Below the pieces are notes generated by a model. The model was given only the letters and a program-made list of their open reading frames with translations, was not told where the DNA came from and made no database searches. Positions 851 through 7,163 of a stretch of DNA of 7,163 nucleotides are shown one piece after another; within the stretch, counting starts at the first letter, position 1; each line of letters starts with the position of its first letter. The stretch is from Candidatus Zixiibacteriota bacterium (lineage in GTDB: Bacteria; Zixibacteria; MSB-5A5; GN15; PGXB01). The position numbers and the translations under genes are program-made. The DNA lies in the NCBI GenBank assembly GCA_900498245.1, contig LS998015.1, forward strand, positions 3,020,060-3,027,222, read 5' to 3'.

Positions 851-2002
851 TCACATTTTTTTCACGACTTTTCCGGGGGGAGCGCTCTGGTAGGTGCGGC
901 CGTCGTCATGGCACCCGGAGCAATCGGGTTTATTTTCGAATTTGCGGTCGAGATGGCAATCGGTACATCCCATGGCGTAGTGGGTCTCATCGAGTTGCAG
1001 GCCGGTGACGGCGTGGTCGAAATTATCGGTGTTCCATCCGGCGTGGCAGGTGGCGCAATCGGAATTGATTCTGGAAATTTTACGGCCGGTCGGGTGGCAG
1101 GCCTGGCAATCAAGGGTTTTATGATAGCGATTGAGGGCCCAGCCGGTGGTTTCATGGGTGAACGCCGGCCGTTCACGATTATCATGGCACTTGACGCAGC
1201 GGTCCTTGAGGTGGCAATCGTTGCAGACGGCGTGGATTTCGATATCGGTCTTGGCGTGGGAGGCCGGTTCCTTGATATCATGGCAGTAACTGCAGTTCTC
1301 CCGTTTGTGACAATCGACACAGCGCAGGCCAAAGAGGACGATATGCTCCTTGTGGCGGAAAGTCACGACCGGGGCCTTGGCCAGAGTGGTGTGGTAAATT
1401 CTTTTTTCCGGCTCGGTGATGATGGGGTGCGAGATGCCCATAATATCGGTGGAGTCCATCAACATCGATTCGGCCGCCAGGGCTTTACCCTCGGCGGGCA
1501 AATGACAGAGAATGCACTTGGTATCGTGGCTCCATTCCCGGTGACAGCCGAGGCACTGCCGGTGATAGGCGCCTTTCAAGCCGGGCTGACGGAGGTCGGC
1601 GGGATTGGTTTCGCCGCCGTGACAGGCCTTACAGGGCTGAATTTTGTCGGTCGGGCTGTAATGGTGACAGGTGGAGCAATTGCCGCCCATCTGTGACATG
1701 CCGGCGTGTCTTTTATGATTGAAGTGGACGGGTTGATACAGATCGGCGATGTCATCGAGGAGCATGGAATCGGGGGCCTCGCCCAGACTGTGGGTATCGG
1801 CGCCGTGCGCCAGGGAGATGCTGGGGCAAGTTTTGAGGCACTTGTTGGCCGCGGTCGGGTTGTCGCAGGAGTGGCAGGTTTTACAGTCCATCTTGGACAT
1901 TTCCCGGGTGGGCGGGGTATCGGCCCGGGAGACCAGACTGCCCCCTATCGCCAGGGAAAAAACAGCCGCCATGACAAATAAGATCAATTTATGATTTTTC
2001 AT
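851..2002 (-). CDS. Secreted 13-haem cytochrome c (class III-like), electron-transfer subunit of the HybAB module
   Basis: A 383-residue protein with 13 CXXCH haem c motifs; the first cysteines are at 40, 109, 124, 150, 163, 228, 237, 260, 269, 299, 316, 346 and 361. Eighteen further histidines outside the motifs in the mature part are enough for bis-His ligation of every haem. A Sec signal peptide spans about residues 1-27, with likely cleavage after S-R-A. Stretches such as V-x-F-x-H-K-x-H before CXXCH pairs resemble cytochrome c3/c7 domains, and residues 281-322 and 328-366 are a repeated di-haem unit. Three non-haem cysteines (46, 55, 59) follow haem 1. The frame extends to 2053, but ATG 2002-2000 is chosen because it has GAGGTGG five bases upstream and begins directly with the signal peptide. 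It overlaps hybB by 14 bases. Role inferred: periplasmic electron wire between HybA/HybB and an unidentified partner. Confidence 0.93.
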   Translation of the reverse strand: MKNHKLILFVMAAVFSLAIGGSLVSRADTPPTREMSKMDCKTCHSCDNPTAANKCLKTCPSISLAHGADTHSLGEAPDSMLLDDIADLYQPVHFNHKRHAGMSQMGGNCSTCHHYSPTDKIQPCKACHGGETNPADLRQPGLKGAYHRQCLGCHREWSHDTKCILCHLPAEGKALAAESMLMDSTDIMGISHPIITEPEKRIYHTTLAKAPVVTFRHKEHIVLFGLRCVDCHKRENCSYCHDIKEPASHAKTDIEIHAVCNDCHLKDRCVKCHDNRERPAFTHETTGWALNRYHKTLDCQACHPTGRKISRINSDCATCHAGWNTDNFDHAVTGLQLDETHYAMGCTDCHLDRKFENKPDCSGCHDDGRTYQSAPPGKVVKKM

Positions 2003-3269
2003 ATGAGCCACCTCTTCTGAGAACATATGAAGGTTCCGGGCGCGGCGATTCATTTCTGACTTTTTCCACGACGGGAGCCGCGATAACCGGGAAATTCATG
2101 ACCACAAAACGATATACTAAAATCAGCGCGGCCGCCAGCCCCAGAGTCACGGCAATTTCGTACAGAGAGGGATAATAGGGCGAAGTCCCATAAAGGGGTT
2201 TGTAGGCCACGATGAAGACATTGATTCGATTCAAGACGACGCCGAGAACAACCATGGCGGAAGCGGTAAAGAGCCCGGCGACCGAGTTGCGGACCTTCGT
2301 AATGGTCAACATGATAAGAGGTATGATGACGCCGCCGACAATTTCGAGAAAGTACATGAAGGATTGGAAGGTCCCCTGGAACAGGTACGGCCAGGCACCG
2401 CGCAGGGTCAGATCGACCAGTTTCACCGCCAGATAAACGCCCAGGGTAAGCGGGATGTAGCGGGCCAGGGAGGAGAGGACGCCGAGTTCCGGTTTGAGTT
2501 TGAAGGAACGGGAGGCCAGGGTCGATTCAAAAATGACCATGGGGAATCCGACCGCGATGGCCGAAAGGAGGAAGAGAAGGGGCGACATCGGGGTGTACCA
2601 GAGGGGATGCATTTTGTAGGGCGCGATGACCATCAGATTGCCCAGCGACGATTGATGCAGGCAAGAGAGGACGACCCCGGCGATGATGAAGAGAAAGAGG
2701 ACCTTTTTCAGGGTGCGGTCGGCCAGGCCGAGGATTTTTTCGCCGAGGCGGTTGAATCCGGAGAGCGGGCCGGGAAGATTGACACGTCCCTTGAACCGTT
2801 CCACGAAAATCGGGGTAAATTCGACATAGAGGACGGTCAGGTAAATCATCACGCAGATACCGACTTCGAAAAGCACGGAGTTGCCCTGCCACATCGACGG
2901 GAGCATGGGGTGCCATACATTATAGTAACGGCCGAGGTCGGCCAGGAGACCGATAACCACAAAGGTGTATCCGAGCATGGCGGTCAAAAGGGCGGGCCGG
3001 GTAATGACGTGATACTTGTCTTTATGGAAGATTTCGGCGAGGGCGGCGGTGGTAAAGCCGCCGGCGGCCAAGGCAACACCGGAGGCGACATCAATGGCGA
3101 TCCAGATGCCCCAGGGATACTGGTCGTTCAAATTGGTGGCGGCGCCGAGACCGAAGAGGAGACGGTAGGCATAGGCCAGCAGGCCGACGCCCATGATGGC
3201 GGCGAGAATCTTGGTTCCGGTGGTGAAAAATCTGGCCTGCACCGGCATCGGCATTTCCAGATTACTCAT
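1989..3269 (-). CDS. hybB: HybB/NrfD-family quinone-interacting integral membrane subunit
   Basis: A 426-residue polytopic protein of the NrfD/PsrC superfamily, HybB branch ('Ni/Fe-hydrogenase cytochrome b subunit', although the family binds no haem b). About ten hydrophobic helices lie near residues 18-38, 52-76, 92-112, 128-152, 188-206, 224-247, 268-288, 303-325, 330-348 and 370-391. HybB-type signatures are G-L-G-A-A-T-N-L-N-D-Q-Y-P-W-G at 40-54, the W-Q-G-N-S-V-L-F-E-V region at 127-136, and L-H-Q-S-S-L-G with H-P-L-W-Y-T-P at 204-227. Family members exchange electrons between menaquinone or ubiquinone and a periplasmic Fe-S partner. The start has AGGAAGGAG nine bases upstream and overlaps the end of hybA by 8 bases (ATGAGTAA), suggesting translational coupling. 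No hydrogenase large or small subunit is present in the window, so 'hydrogenase' is only a family name here. Confidence 0.92.
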   Translation of the reverse strand: MSNLEMPMPVQARFFTTGTKILAAIMGVGLLAYAYRLLFGLGAATNLNDQYPWGIWIAIDVASGVALAAGGFTTAALAEIFHKDKYHVITRPALLTAMLGYTFVVIGLLADLGRYYNVWHPMLPSMWQGNSVLFEVGICVMIYLTVLYVEFTPIFVERFKGRVNLPGPLSGFNRLGEKILGLADRTLKKVLFLFIIAGVVLSCLHQSSLGNLMVIAPYKMHPLWYTPMSPLLFLLSAIAVGFPMVIFESTLASRSFKLKPELGVLSSLARYIPLTLGVYLAVKLVDLTLRGAWPYLFQGTFQSFMYFLEIVGGVIIPLIMLTITKVRNSVAGLFTASAMVVLGVVLNRINVFIVAYKPLYGTSPYYPSLYEIAVTLGLAAALILVYRFVVMNFPVIAAPVVEKVRNESPRPEPSYVLRRGGSYEKS

Positions 3270-4167
3270 GCTCTTCGGCTCCTTCCTTGTTGTTCTTATC
3301 CCTCAAGTTGTACATGGCCAAGCCCAGAAGCCCGTAGAGGGCCAGGGGCGGGATGAAGTTCTTGAAAATACCGTGCTGGGTGGTTTCAGTGACTTCCGGA
3401 ACAGGGCGGTCGCCCAGTTTGGGGAGCTCCGTATTTATGAAGTCGGCCGAAGCCAGATACATCCAGGAGGTTCCGCCGATTTCATGTTCGCCGTAAACGT
3501 GGTCGAAATATTTTTCGGGATTGGCGGCGATCCGGGTATGGCCCATCTCGATCAATTCTTTCCGGGTTCCAAAGGTCAGGGCCTCATTGGGGCAGATACC
3601 GACGCAGGCCGGCTTCTCCCCTTTTTTCAGTTTTTCGGAGCAGAAGGTGCATTTGCGGACCTGCGGGGTCAGGACATTATTGAATTCATAGGCCGGAATC
3701 TGGAAGGGGCAGGCGATCATGCAATAGCGGCAACCCATGCATTTCCAGGCGTCATAGGTCACCGGCCCCTGCGGCGTTTTGCGGAAGGCCCCGACGATGC
3801 AGGCCGAGGCGCAGGCCGGGTCATTGCAGTGCATACACTGGACCTTCATGGAAAATTTCTGCTCGGGATTATCGGGCCGGGAATATTGATTGATGACGGT
3901 GTAGGCCGCGAAGTTGGGGCGGCGGTGCTCCTTGAAAATCGATTTGTCTTCGAAAGCACTGAGCGGTTTGTTGCTCAGGGTATTGGCATCATTGCACGCC
4001 CACTCGCACTTGCGACAGCCGATACAGACGACGGTATCGACGAGAACGCCGAACGCATTGTCGGTATCGATTTTGGTTTTTTTGTCTGAGGCGATCGCTT
4101 CTCCGGCAGTCAGCGTAAGTGTGCCGGCAGCGGCCAATTTAATAAAGTTGCGACGATTCAAACTCAC
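3262..4167 (-). CDS. hybA: HybA-like Tat-exported ferredoxin with four [4Fe-4S] cluster sites
   Basis: A 301-residue protein of the HybA/NrfC/DmsB ferredoxin family. It starts with a Tat signal (N-R-R-N-F-I-K, arginines 5-6) with a likely cleavage site after A-I-A (about residue 26). Sixteen cysteines in four ferredoxin groups (48/51/54/58, 111/114/119/123, 143/146/149/153, 173/176/188/192) fit four [4Fe-4S] clusters. The C-terminal hydrophobic stretch at about 271-288 would anchor it in the membrane, as in HybA of E. coli, whose L-Y-G-E-x-E-x-G-G-T-like segment is also present (V-Y-G-E at 224-227). Role: periplasmic Fe-S relay between the HybB quinone site and the haems of the third gene. 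GTG 4167-4165 is preferred because GAGGTG lies seven bases upstream. An in-frame TTG two codons earlier is almost on top of that site. First gene of the operon. Confidence 0.92.
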   Translation of the reverse strand: MSLNRRNFIKLAAAGTLTLTAGEAIASDKKTKIDTDNAFGVLVDTVVCIGCRKCEWACNDANTLSNKPLSAFEDKSIFKEHRRPNFAAYTVINQYSRPDNPEQKFSMKVQCMHCNDPACASACIVGAFRKTPQGPVTYDAWKCMGCRYCMIACPFQIPAYEFNNVLTPQVRKCTFCSEKLKKGEKPACVGICPNEALTFGTRKELIEMGHTRIAANPEKYFDHVYGEHEIGGTSWMYLASADFINTELPKLGDRPVPEVTETTQHGIFKNFIPPLALYGLLGLAMYNLRDKNNKEGAEEHE

Positions 4168-4174
4168 GTTCAAT

Positions 4175-4677: not shown

Positions 4678-6009
4678 CTAGAGGTAATAGAAAAGACTGA
4701 ATTCTCTCAACTTGACGCTGCCACTGATGCCGGCCCTTTGGGTCCAGGCATATATATACATTTTGACAGAATGTCCGGCCAGGAAATGAATATCTGCGGG
4801 CAGGGGCTCATCGAGCGCAAGTTCCTTTGTCCCACCCCAATATTTATTGGCATCGATCATGACGCCGTCAACCTGCATACCAATGTCAAACGAGGCTTCT
4901 TCTATCGATGCATTAATGACCCAGTATACTGCGGCCGCTTCCTGGGGGATCGCAATTCCATTTGCCATCATCAAAATTCCCATGTCGGTCGCCTGGCAGA
5001 AATCGTAACGATAACAATCATTTGCCGAATCGATATACCAGGGCAACCAGAAGTCGTAACGGGAAAATTTCCAGAGATTAACCGAGGAAATTCCCTCGGA
5101 TTGAAAGGCCAGGCGCCGGATCCTTCCAATGAAATCGATACTGGAGTCGGGATTCGAAATATCCACGGAAAAGTCTTGTGTCAACAGTTTATAGTTCGGA
5201 TTTCCCCCGTCGTGAATCCGGAGGATGATATTGCCATAAGGGACATTCTCTATTTTGTAATTACCCCCGGCGTCGGTCCGGGCCGTCAGTTCCGAAGCCG
5301 AACCATCAGGATTGATGACGGTTACCAGAGCGTCCATCAGAGGTGCAAACTCACGTGTCACGATTTGTCCCGAAACCGATGTCACCGCGGTAGCGCTTTG
5401 CAGAAATAGATTAATACTCGTGTCCGAGGTAATTTCGACGACGGTCGAAAAAGTGTCAAATTGAGGTTTGAAGGCCCGGATGTCATACTGGTTGGGGGCG
5501 ATATTGGGCAGGATGTAGGAACCGTTGGTATCGGAGGTATCGGCCCGATACCCGATCGAAATTTCCGCATCGGGAATCGGGATATGGGTTTGGGGATAAT
5601 ATATATTTCCGGTCAGGGTCAGGCCGGTATCAATAGAAATCCATTTATGGGCCTGGAACTTGTCAGCGCCATCGGTAATATCGACCATGACTTTTATCAT
5701 CATCCCGGCCTTCAGATTCACGGCGATACTCATATCGGTGATCGGCGCCAGACTGTCGGTGAATCGTCCGGCCCTCGGATAGGTGGACCAGGCATAACTC
5801 AGAGAGTCGTTATTGGGGTTGGAAACGACCGCTTCCAGACGGACCTGTCCGCCGGGGAGAATAAAACCGGGTGTTACCAAAATGGAATCGACCGCCGGAC
5901 CGACCGGCTCGATTTGCGGAGCGACGCTTTTTTCGGTACAACCTGTGAGGAGAATTAGCACCGACGACAGCAGACCCGCTATCAGGAAATACCGACAGCG
6001 AAAATTCAT
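4678..6009 (-). CDS. Lipoprotein with Ig/PKD-like and two carboxypeptidase-regulatory-like domains
   Basis: A 443-residue lipoprotein. Residues 1-23 are a signal peptide ending in the lipobox L-L-T-G-C (lipidated Cys24), so the protein is membrane-anchored, probably at the outer membrane. Residues about 37-126 look like an Ig/PKD-type beta-sandwich (S-Y-A-W-S-T core). Residues 130-204 and 211-292 each resemble a carboxypeptidase-regulatory-like domain: both have G-x-I at the start, then a D-A-x-(V/I) strand, and T-x-x-x-G-x-Y followed by an (N-I/N-V)-x-P/x-Y turn. The remaining 150 residues are beta-rich and aromatic, with a possible Cys332-Cys338 disulfide and no recognised family. There are no catalytic motifs, so a structural, binding or adhesion role is more likely than an enzyme. 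No Shine-Dalgarno site precedes the ATG. An AT-rich -10-like box lies just upstream, so the message may be leaderless. Confidence 0.87.
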   Translation of the reverse strand: MNFRCRYFLIAGLLSSVLILLTGCTEKSVAPQIEPVGPAVDSILVTPGFILPGGQVRLEAVVSNPNNDSLSYAWSTYPRAGRFTDSLAPITDMSIAVNLKAGMMIKVMVDITDGADKFQAHKWISIDTGLTLTGNIYYPQTHIPIPDAEISIGYRADTSDTNGSYILPNIAPNQYDIRAFKPQFDTFSTVVEITSDTSINLFLQSATAVTSVSGQIVTREFAPLMDALVTVINPDGSASELTARTDAGGNYKIENVPYGNIILRIHDGGNPNYKLLTQDFSVDISNPDSSIDFIGRIRRLAFQSEGISSVNLWKFSRYDFWLPWYIDSANDCYRYDFCQATDMGILMMANGIAIPQEAAAVYWVINASIEEASFDIGMQVDGVMIDANKYWGGTKELALDEPLPADIHFLAGHSVKMYIYAWTQRAGISGSVKLREFSLFYYL

Positions 6010-6114: not shown

Positions 6115-6447
6115 ATGAAAATTGAGAATGTCCCTTTTACCGTAACAAATCTGGCCGCGGTGCCGCCGACTGAGCATAAGGGGGAAACCGGCACGGCCCT
6201 CTGGCACAGTTTCGAAAGCGGGAATATCAGGGTGCGGATAGTTGAATACTCCCCGGGGTACCTCGCCGATCACTGGTGTTCCCGGGGGCATGTGGTGCTG
6301 GTGCTCGAGGGGGAATTGGTCAATGAATTGAAGGACGGCACCAGGACCATATTGAAACCGGGGATGAATTATCAGACCTCGGATGACGAAAAGAACCCGC
6401 ATCGCTCATTCACCAAGACCGGGGCGAAATTGTTTATAGTTGATTGA
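6115..6447 (+). CDS. DHCW-motif cupin fold protein
   Basis: A 110-residue single-domain cupin. The segment G48-Y-L-A-D-H-W-C-S-R-G-H59 carries the D-H-W-C signature of the small family named 'DHCW motif cupin fold protein'. It replaces the usual H-x-H of cupin motif 1 with H53-x-C55 followed by H59. Glu65 and His96 are further candidate metal ligands, and the family-typical G-A-K-L-F-I-V-D ends the protein. Length is that expected for a complete family member. The start is secure: AAAGGAGGG lies eight bases before the ATG. There is no signal peptide, so it is cytoplasmic. Family function is not established; a small-molecule or metal-binding role is inferred from the fold only. It is monocistronic as far as can be seen, divergent from the lipoprotein gene, and followed by the repeat cluster. 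Confidence 0.88.
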   Translation: MKIENVPFTVTNLAAVPPTEHKGETGTALWHSFESGNIRVRIVEYSPGYLADHWCSRGHVVLVLEGELVNELKDGTRTILKPGMNYQTSDDEKNPHRSFTKTGAKLFIVD

Positions 6448-6455
6448 TCGGCAAA

Positions 6456-6612
6456 GATGTCGGGTTTCTCGAAAGTTCGCTTCGCTCACGTCTCGGAACC
6501 CGACCTACCAGGGCTTCTGCAGCCGGAAGAAGAGAATAATAAGTAGTAGCAGACCTTTAGGTTTTAAGGCGGAACCGCAAGACTTCGTCCGGGGTTCCGC
6601 CCTACTATTACT
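6456..6612. repeat. 157-bp composite repeat, copy A (two CTAC-footed palindromes)
   Basis: Direct copy of 6658-6814 with 6 mismatches. It starts 9 bases after the cupin stop codon. It contains palindrome R1 (GTCGGGTT 6459-6466, AACCCGAC 6497-6504, then CTAC 6505-6508) and palindrome R2 (GGCGGAACC 6568-6576, GGTTCCGCC 6593-6601, then CTAC 6602-6605). R2 has an inner GAC-TTC-GTC hairpin. A 59-base linker that is almost identical in both copies joins them. Read on the - strand each palindrome begins with GTAG, as in REP elements. No transposase or RAYT gene is in the window. Confidence 0.9.
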
Positions 6613-6626
6613 GACAAATATATGAA

Positions 6627-6649
6627 GGGCGGGTGCAACCCGCCCCTAC
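6627..6649. repeat. Third CTAC-footed palindrome, between the two 157-bp copies
   Basis: GGGCGGGT (6627-6634) and ACCCGCCC (6638-6645) enclose a 3-base loop and are followed immediately by CTAC (6646-6649). Arm sequence and loop length differ from R1 and R2, but the foot and its position are identical. Confidence 0.8.
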
Positions 6650-6657
6650 GAAATCAT

Positions 6658-6814
6658 GATGTCGGGTTTCTCGACAGTTCGCTCCGCTCACGTCTCGGAA
6701 CCAGACCTACGGGGGCTTCTGCAGCCGGAAGAAGAGAATAATAAGTAGTAGCAGACCTTTGGGTTTTAAGGCGGAACCGCAAGACTTCGTCCGGGGTTCC
6801 GCCCTACTATTACT
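6658..6814. repeat. 157-bp composite repeat, copy B
   Basis: Second direct copy, offset exactly 202 bases from copy A and 96% identical. The R2 hairpin (6770-6803, CTAC 6804-6807) is unchanged. The R1 hairpin (6661-6668 with 6699-6706, CTAC 6707-6710) carries a C-to-A change that breaks one stem pair. Confidence 0.9.
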
Positions 6815-6816
6815 TC

Positions 6817-6833
6817 TATCCGGATTCCGGATA
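6817..6833. other. 17-bp near-perfect palindrome
   Basis: TATCCGGA-T-TCCGGATA: 8-base arms around one central base, two bases after the end of repeat copy B and 144 bases before the next gene. It could be an operator for the downstream gene or part of the repeat boundary. The palindrome is seen; the role is unknown. Confidence 0.45.
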
Positions 6834-6931
6834 TACACCTGATTAGTTTCTAACCGTTTCCTATCATTCTCCCAAATCCACAATCGATTGATAATCAAGC
6901 AATTGTGCTGCAATTGAGGCCACACAAAATT

Positions 6932-6947
6932 GGGCACGAAAGTTGAA
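6932..6947 (+). promoter_or_regulatory. Weak sigma54-like promoter match upstream of the last gene
   Basis: GGGCACG-N4-TTGA resembles the -24/-12 element TGGCACG-N4-TTGC but has A instead of the strongly conserved C at -12. A start near 6957 would leave room for the ribosome binding site at 6965-6971. Two GCAATTG copies (6899-6905, 6910-6916) lie upstream. Low confidence. Confidence 0.2.
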
Positions 6948-6976
6948 TAACCTGAAATTGAGACAAAGGAGAAAAT

Positions 6977-7163
6977 ATGAGAAGGTATTTTAAATCTGCA
7001 ATAGTGGCTCGGCTCAGGGTTCTGGCGGCGAGCGCTTTGCTTTTTTCGGCCTACCCGGTTTGTGACGCACCAACCGGAACAAGTTCTGACACAGAAAACC
7101 ATCAAAGCTGGGACTTTGAGCAATATGTTGGGATCAGCGGCTATGTATATGATAGACAGACCG
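6977..7163 (+). CDS. Secreted protein, N-terminal part, probable carboxypeptidase-regulatory-like domain (3' end outside window)
   Basis: ATG 6977 has AAAGGAG (6965-6971) five bases upstream and opens a frame that runs off the window after 62 codons. Residues 1-31 look like a Sec signal peptide: a basic start (M-R-R-Y-F-K, then R12 and R14), a hydrophobic stretch at about 15-28, and likely cleavage after V-C-D-A. Cys29 is in a poor lipobox context (Y-P-V-C), so lipidation is doubtful. The mature part begins with a polar linker. It then reads I-S-G-Y-V-Y-D-R-Q-T, the usual first strand of carboxypeptidase-regulatory-like domains, which are also present in the lipoprotein at 4678-6009. The function of the full protein cannot be told from this fragment. 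Confidence 0.75.
   Translation, partial: MRRYFKSAIVARLRVLAASALLFSAYPVCDAPTGTSSDTENHQSWDFEQYVGISGYVYDRQT

Follow-up and report, generated by a model that had tools for sequence, protein, structure and literature searches.

The hairpin locus and its surroundings

The window, by which we mean the whole stretch of 7,163 nucleotides analysed here (G000:C1:3020060-3027222), belongs to a genome of 3,508,505 bases assembled as a single contig. It opens with the end of a dockerin-type protein (1-465). Further along, on the minus strand, lie operon-like genes for a multihaem cytochrome c, an NrfD-type membrane subunit and a 4Fe-4S protein (851-4173), probably encoding an anaerobic electron-transfer complex, and a predicted lipoprotein with carboxypeptidase-regulatory-like domains (4678-6009). 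An array of five hairpins occupies the interval between a DHCW-cupin gene and an ORF starting at 6977 (Table 1). A search of the window against Rfam returned no matches.

Table 1. Hairpins, repeat units and upstream flanking gene in the window
Feature	Positions	Strand	Description
DHCW motif cupin fold protein gene	6115-6447	+	Upstream flank, context only, outside the element; NF038084, 158.6 bits (cut-off 70)
First R1-R2-R3 unit, 202 bp	6456-6657	+	Direct repeat family D1, spacing 202
R1a	6459-6508	+	REP hairpin, 8-10 bp basal stem GTCGGGTTTC/GGAACCCGAC, imperfect apex, CTAC foot
R2a	6568-6605	+	REP hairpin, 9 bp GGCGGAACC/GGTTCCGCC, apex GCAAGACTTCGTCCGGG, CTAC foot
R3	6627-6649	+	Short perfect hairpin GGGCGGGT-GCA-ACCCGCCC, CTAC foot
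Second, partial R1-R2 unit, 157 bp	6658-6814	+	151/157 identical (96%) to 6456-6612
R1b	6661-6710	+	Second copy of R1, CTAC foot retained
R2b	6770-6807	+	Second copy of R2, identical to R2a, CTAC foot

The original prediction had described five palindromes of three kinds, each flush with CTAC and in the same orientation, and all of them are present at 6459-6807: every one of the five stems abuts CTAC on the plus strand (GTAG on the other strand) with no gap, and the five run head-to-tail. The REP strand of R1a, in which GTAG comes first, is the minus strand, and in R1b a single basal pair is broken (C to A at 6703). Because R1 and R2 recur as two copies of one 157-bp segment, the five hairpins are not five independent events; the array consists of three independent hairpin kinds and one tandem duplication. 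The prediction had also likened the array to the paired clusters known as BIMEs, but a BIME is an inverted REP pair with a linker and here all five hairpins point the same way, so that the comparison fails. One relative (G004), the only one to carry the upstream cupin gene (80% amino acid identity), has no hairpins at that place; its downstream gene differs and it does not serve as a clean empty site.

Enrichment of CTAC at hairpin feet

The tetramer following hairpin stems was counted in 20 evenly spaced 20-kb stretches of the same genome (400 kb, L032-L051); all outer stems with 8 perfectly paired bp and a loop of 3-45 were included, and the four bases directly after each were recorded. CTAC followed 20 of the 750 outer stems, compared with 0.73 expected from its background frequency, and was by far the most strongly enriched tetramer; 16 of these 20 stems lie outside the window cluster. 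The next clear excess was TTTT (24 against 7), as would be expected of terminator-like sequences. Over the window as a whole CTAC is not enriched (24 seen, 24 expected), and the excess therefore sits at the hairpin feet. Both CTAC and GTAG are rare in this genome, with 772 occurrences in 796,640 positions of the 400-kb sample, roughly a quarter as many as for the average tetramer.

Dispersed copies in the genome

REPs are non-autonomous repeats made up of a GTAG tetranucleotide and a hairpin, and RAYTs (TnpA-REP) are HUH nucleases with one catalytic tyrosine. The genome was searched for R1 and R2 with the foot left out of the patterns, and reversed patterns, which matched nothing for either hairpin, were used as controls. 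R1-type hairpins were found at 24 sites, 22 of which carry CTAC while the other two carry CCAC and CGAC, and all seven R2 sites found in this way carry CTAC; counting footed copies, R2-type hairpins number 11 (8 + 3). The hairpins are thus not confined to the window and the foot is kept in nearly all the other copies, as had been anticipated, at a modest copy number of tens per hairpin class. R1 stays conserved for about 8 nt in the 5' direction (AAAGAT-like) and for about 2 nt beyond the foot but no further, limits as sharp as expected of dispersed short elements.

The exact R3 sequence occurs once in the genome. In the loose R3 class (GGGCGG..CCGCCC hairpins), 13 of the 20 sites read carry CTAC and two more are one base off, while the reversed pattern also gave matches, 11 per strand; for these reasons R3 is the weakest member of the set.

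With ORFs as proxies for genes, 15 of 21 sampled hairpins lie outside ORFs of at least 200 aa and six inside, against an ORF cover of 81%, and all six belong to one array (L038 16363-16713). Proxies were set at 150 and 200 aa, those of 90 aa (91% of the sample) being too loose. The hairpins therefore have the features of the REP-like family that had been proposed: a GTAG directly adjoining a hairpin some 20-50 nt long, sharp ends and, for R1 and R2, multiple dispersed copies mostly outside genes.

Other features of the copies were observed. The L038 array is a second mosaic array in which GGGCGGAC- and R1-type hairpins alternate at a spacing of about 145 bp; as in the window array they run in one direction, here with a single exception. 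About 1.7 kb past the window end (L049 3903-3966) lies a decayed hybrid with an R1-like start and an R2-like end, in which CTAT replaces CTAC and which has the same TATTACT-like downstream bases as the window R2. Across the genome R1 keeps the same basal stem and foot, whereas its apex occurs in unrelated versions, of the GTTCGCTACGCTCACG type and the CCGGC..GCCGG type. The dinucleotide CT occurs within 8 nt after the foot in 14 of 22 R1 copies compared with a background of 31%, and R2 has no such excess; as a sign of RAYT cleavage this is only suggestive.

RAYT genes of the genome

The genome holds 11 PF01797 (Y1_Tnp) genes, which a REP-type RAYT profile splits into two scoring above 240 bits and others listed at 71-81. 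Both high-scoring genes pass the NCBIfam model for REP-associated tyrosine transposases (NF047646; 116-137 bits, cut-off 80) and fall below the cut-off of the NCBIfam IS200 model (29-33, cut-off 55), and the best solved relative of the RAYT profile is TnpA-REP (PDB 4er8; 1.2e-36). The gene at 1182403-1182879, minus strand, encodes the HUH motif and the single catalytic tyrosine and matches the REP-transposase profile. R1 hairpins lie just upstream and just downstream of it in inverted orientation (GTAG-hairpin-RAYT-hairpin-CTAC), so that a Y1 transposase flanked by the same hairpins, which the prediction called for, does exist; R1 is the only class at its flanks. One of these two hairpins is of each R1 apex type. 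The closest named relatives of this RAYT all belong to Candidatus Zixiibacteriota. The second high-scoring RAYT is flanked by hairpins of the GTCGAAACC class. A profile search found no R2-clade RAYT among the RAYTs of this genome, and its 11 R2 copies are therefore either orphans or served in trans.

Co-inheritance of hairpin classes and RAYT clades

A set of 88 distinct REP-type RAYTs with their flanks was collected, mostly from 60 genomes searched. A CTAC-footed hairpin lies within 160 bp of the gene in 80 of the 88, on both sides in 55, while random 490-bp stretches of the window's own genome have such a hairpin in 2.5% and on both sides in 0.09%. In the neighbourhood of RAYT genes, 145 stems have CTAC directly after them where 3.9 would be expected (the NNNN row of this count comes from stems in runs of N).

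The RAYT tree was built by a quick method for 83 of the 88 and leaves many inner branches unresolved. Hairpin class changes 22 times on it compared with 54 times when shuffled, and none of 200 shuffles was as low. In other Zixibacteria, orthologues of the R1 RAYT likewise have R1 hairpins as flanks, and the 20 RAYTs with R1 flanks all group in a single branch (SH-aLRT 99), which also holds three RAYTs without a hairpin in reach. Seven of the eight RAYTs flanked by R2-like hairpins fall in another branch (93). The R2 apex CAAGACTTCGTC recurs beside an R2-clade RAYT of a genome of the same genus (L280) and, slightly changed, beside one of a genome of the same family (L274). Among the RAYT loci collected, none was convincingly flanked by R3. 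The predicted link to RAYTs was accordingly supported for R1, on both sides of a RAYT in its own genome, and for R2, through a clade present only in related genomes; for R3 no enzyme was found.

Since 53 of the 60 relatives have Y1 genes, the plain presence of such genes is uninformative and the comparison was made by RAYT clade instead. Genomes were divided by hand, from the tree, into those with an R1-clade RAYT, of which 15 of 16 contain R1 hairpins, and those without one, of which 18 of 44 do (Fisher 2e-4, with no correction for relatedness). Some of the 18 genomes with R1 hairpins and no detected R1-clade RAYT are incomplete and some are possibly orphaned.

The residues matching E. coli W94, Q95 and R104, together with a C-terminal GE, are nearly invariant in 74 RAYTs, the GE being matched to G160/E161 by its C-terminal place as the alignment does not reach the tail. 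In E. coli, G160-E161 makes contact with the two final bases of GTAG (PMC8266576, PMC6006769). As hairpin class tracks RAYT clade and the foot-reading residues are nearly invariant, the most plausible view is that the shared foot is a fixed trait of the whole enzyme family, whereas the stems change with the clade.

Duplicated hairpin-RAYT-hairpin units

Two GTAG..CTAC units of 643 bp that differ by one mismatch lie 903 kb apart in a one-contig relative (G044), within G044:C1:1-1800 (L277/L349) and G044:C1:902900-904700 (L302), and their flanks are unrelated from 5-7 bases outside the feet. This pair is a candidate for recent movement of a complete REPtron. One copy starts 108 bases from the contig start, and the duplicate may instead be an assembly artefact. 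Three other genomes hold further unit copies at 86-90%. A pair in G052, at 90%, has its left edge exactly at GTAG, and a pair in G021 stands at 86%. The genome G001, of the same genus, has at least three copies of an R2-type RAYT (L344, L346, L347) that are about 90% identical and each accompanied by an R2-type hairpin; one copy is full and contig ends truncate the other two. The genome of the window has none.

From these sequences, we regard the chances as evenly balanced that whole hairpin-RAYT-hairpin units move as autonomous elements in this order, bounded a few bases outside GTAG/CTAC. In that case these RAYTs, rather than being purely domesticated genes present in single copy, would be mobile transposases. 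The duplicated units are also relevant to a question that is still open, whether RAYT genes can move by themselves.

Interpretation and alternative explanations

We hold with high confidence that the hairpins in the window are REP elements dispersed by RAYT enzymes, each class with its own RAYT lineage. The anatomy, the dispersal, the constant foot, the RAYT genes flanked by the same hairpins and the co-inheritance of hairpin class and RAYT clade are direct observations; binding, cleavage and movement of these hairpins by RAYTs would follow the E. coli enzyme. By that analogy the RAYT would bind the folded single strand, reading GTAG with a fixed residue set and the stem or apex with variable residues, and would cut and rejoin the strand. 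R1 has a cognate RAYT resident in this genome, and R2 would be an orphan here, its RAYT clade being present in one same-genus and one same-family genome. The array itself most likely formed from separate neighbouring REPs, a 202-bp stretch of which was then duplicated once in tandem.

The original prediction favoured one enzyme for several unrelated hairpin subfamilies, that is, a single RAYT mobilising R1, R2 and R3 together, mainly through the GTAG foot. All the hairpins do share one constant foot, and R2 persists without a RAYT of its own clade, so that service in trans is possible. However, R1 and R2 flank RAYTs of two separate clades, hairpin class tracks the tree and the R1 RAYT has only R1 flanks, and we consider a common enzyme very unlikely. 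Somewhat less probable again is that the hairpins have been retained for a signalling role in RNA or DNA, as transcription terminators or mRNA 3' hairpins, to which the foot is incidental. They do come after a gene end, and two weak terminator-like matches were found in 6400-7000 where 0.6 were expected, but no T run follows the hairpins on the plus strand. CTAC is not required of a terminator, but 22/24 and 7/7 copies retain it as their foot, as do hairpins beside RAYT genes, and genome-wide the R1 foot is conserved better than the neighbouring bases. REPs elsewhere have taken on terminator or mRNA-hairpin roles, and a later role of this kind would be compatible with a REP origin.

Chance hairpins in GC-rich intergenic DNA are the least credible explanation, to which we give almost no weight. 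Only R3 lends itself to this view, being short, GC-rich and present in one exact copy, with reversed matches to its loose class. For R1 and R2 chance is already excluded by the foot enrichment, the conserved genome-wide copies and the empty reversed controls.

Comparison with known systems

The REP reading places the hairpins and their RAYTs beside several described systems. IS200/IS605 elements (TnpA Y1) have in common with them the HUH Y1 nuclease fold and palindromic ends, but differ from the RAYTs and hairpins described here, which have the GTAG foot, dispersed gene-less hairpins and enzymes that pass the REP transposase model and stay below the IS200 cut-off. The group 3 REPtrons (Stenotrophomonas SMAGs, Marinomonas Mb, Pseudomonas; PMC8266576, PMC3733652) have short near-perfect hairpins like R2 and R3, a GTAG foot and several repeat-specific RAYTs per genome, as here. 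The host phylum differs, however, and the C-terminal GE tail, said to be missing from group 3, is present in the R2-clade RAYTs.

The E. coli REPs (Y, Z1, Z2) and their group 2 RAYT, TnpA-REP (PDB 4er8; PMC8266576), likewise have the GTAG foot. Their hairpin is long and imperfect, like R1, and the RAYT is flanked by inverted REPs, as here; the foot-contacting W94, Q95 and R104 and the C-terminal GE are matched in the RAYTs of this study. Unlike E. coli, the genomes described here have several RAYTs and stem classes each, the stem sequences differ, and the window hairpins run head-to-tail where E. coli BIME pairs are inverted. It has been published that every tnpA-REP is paired with a REP family of its own, even when a genome has several (PMC6006769, PMC3733652), and we found no account of REPs in Zixibacteria in the open-licence literature. 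The window is a clean, new and well-populated example of an already known REP/RAYT system, adding an uncultured and poorly studied phylum in which a single genome has several REP classes and several RAYTs. In the 88 RAYTs and their hairpins the foot-reading residues are fixed and the stem class varies, which opens the choice of REP by a RAYT to comparative study.
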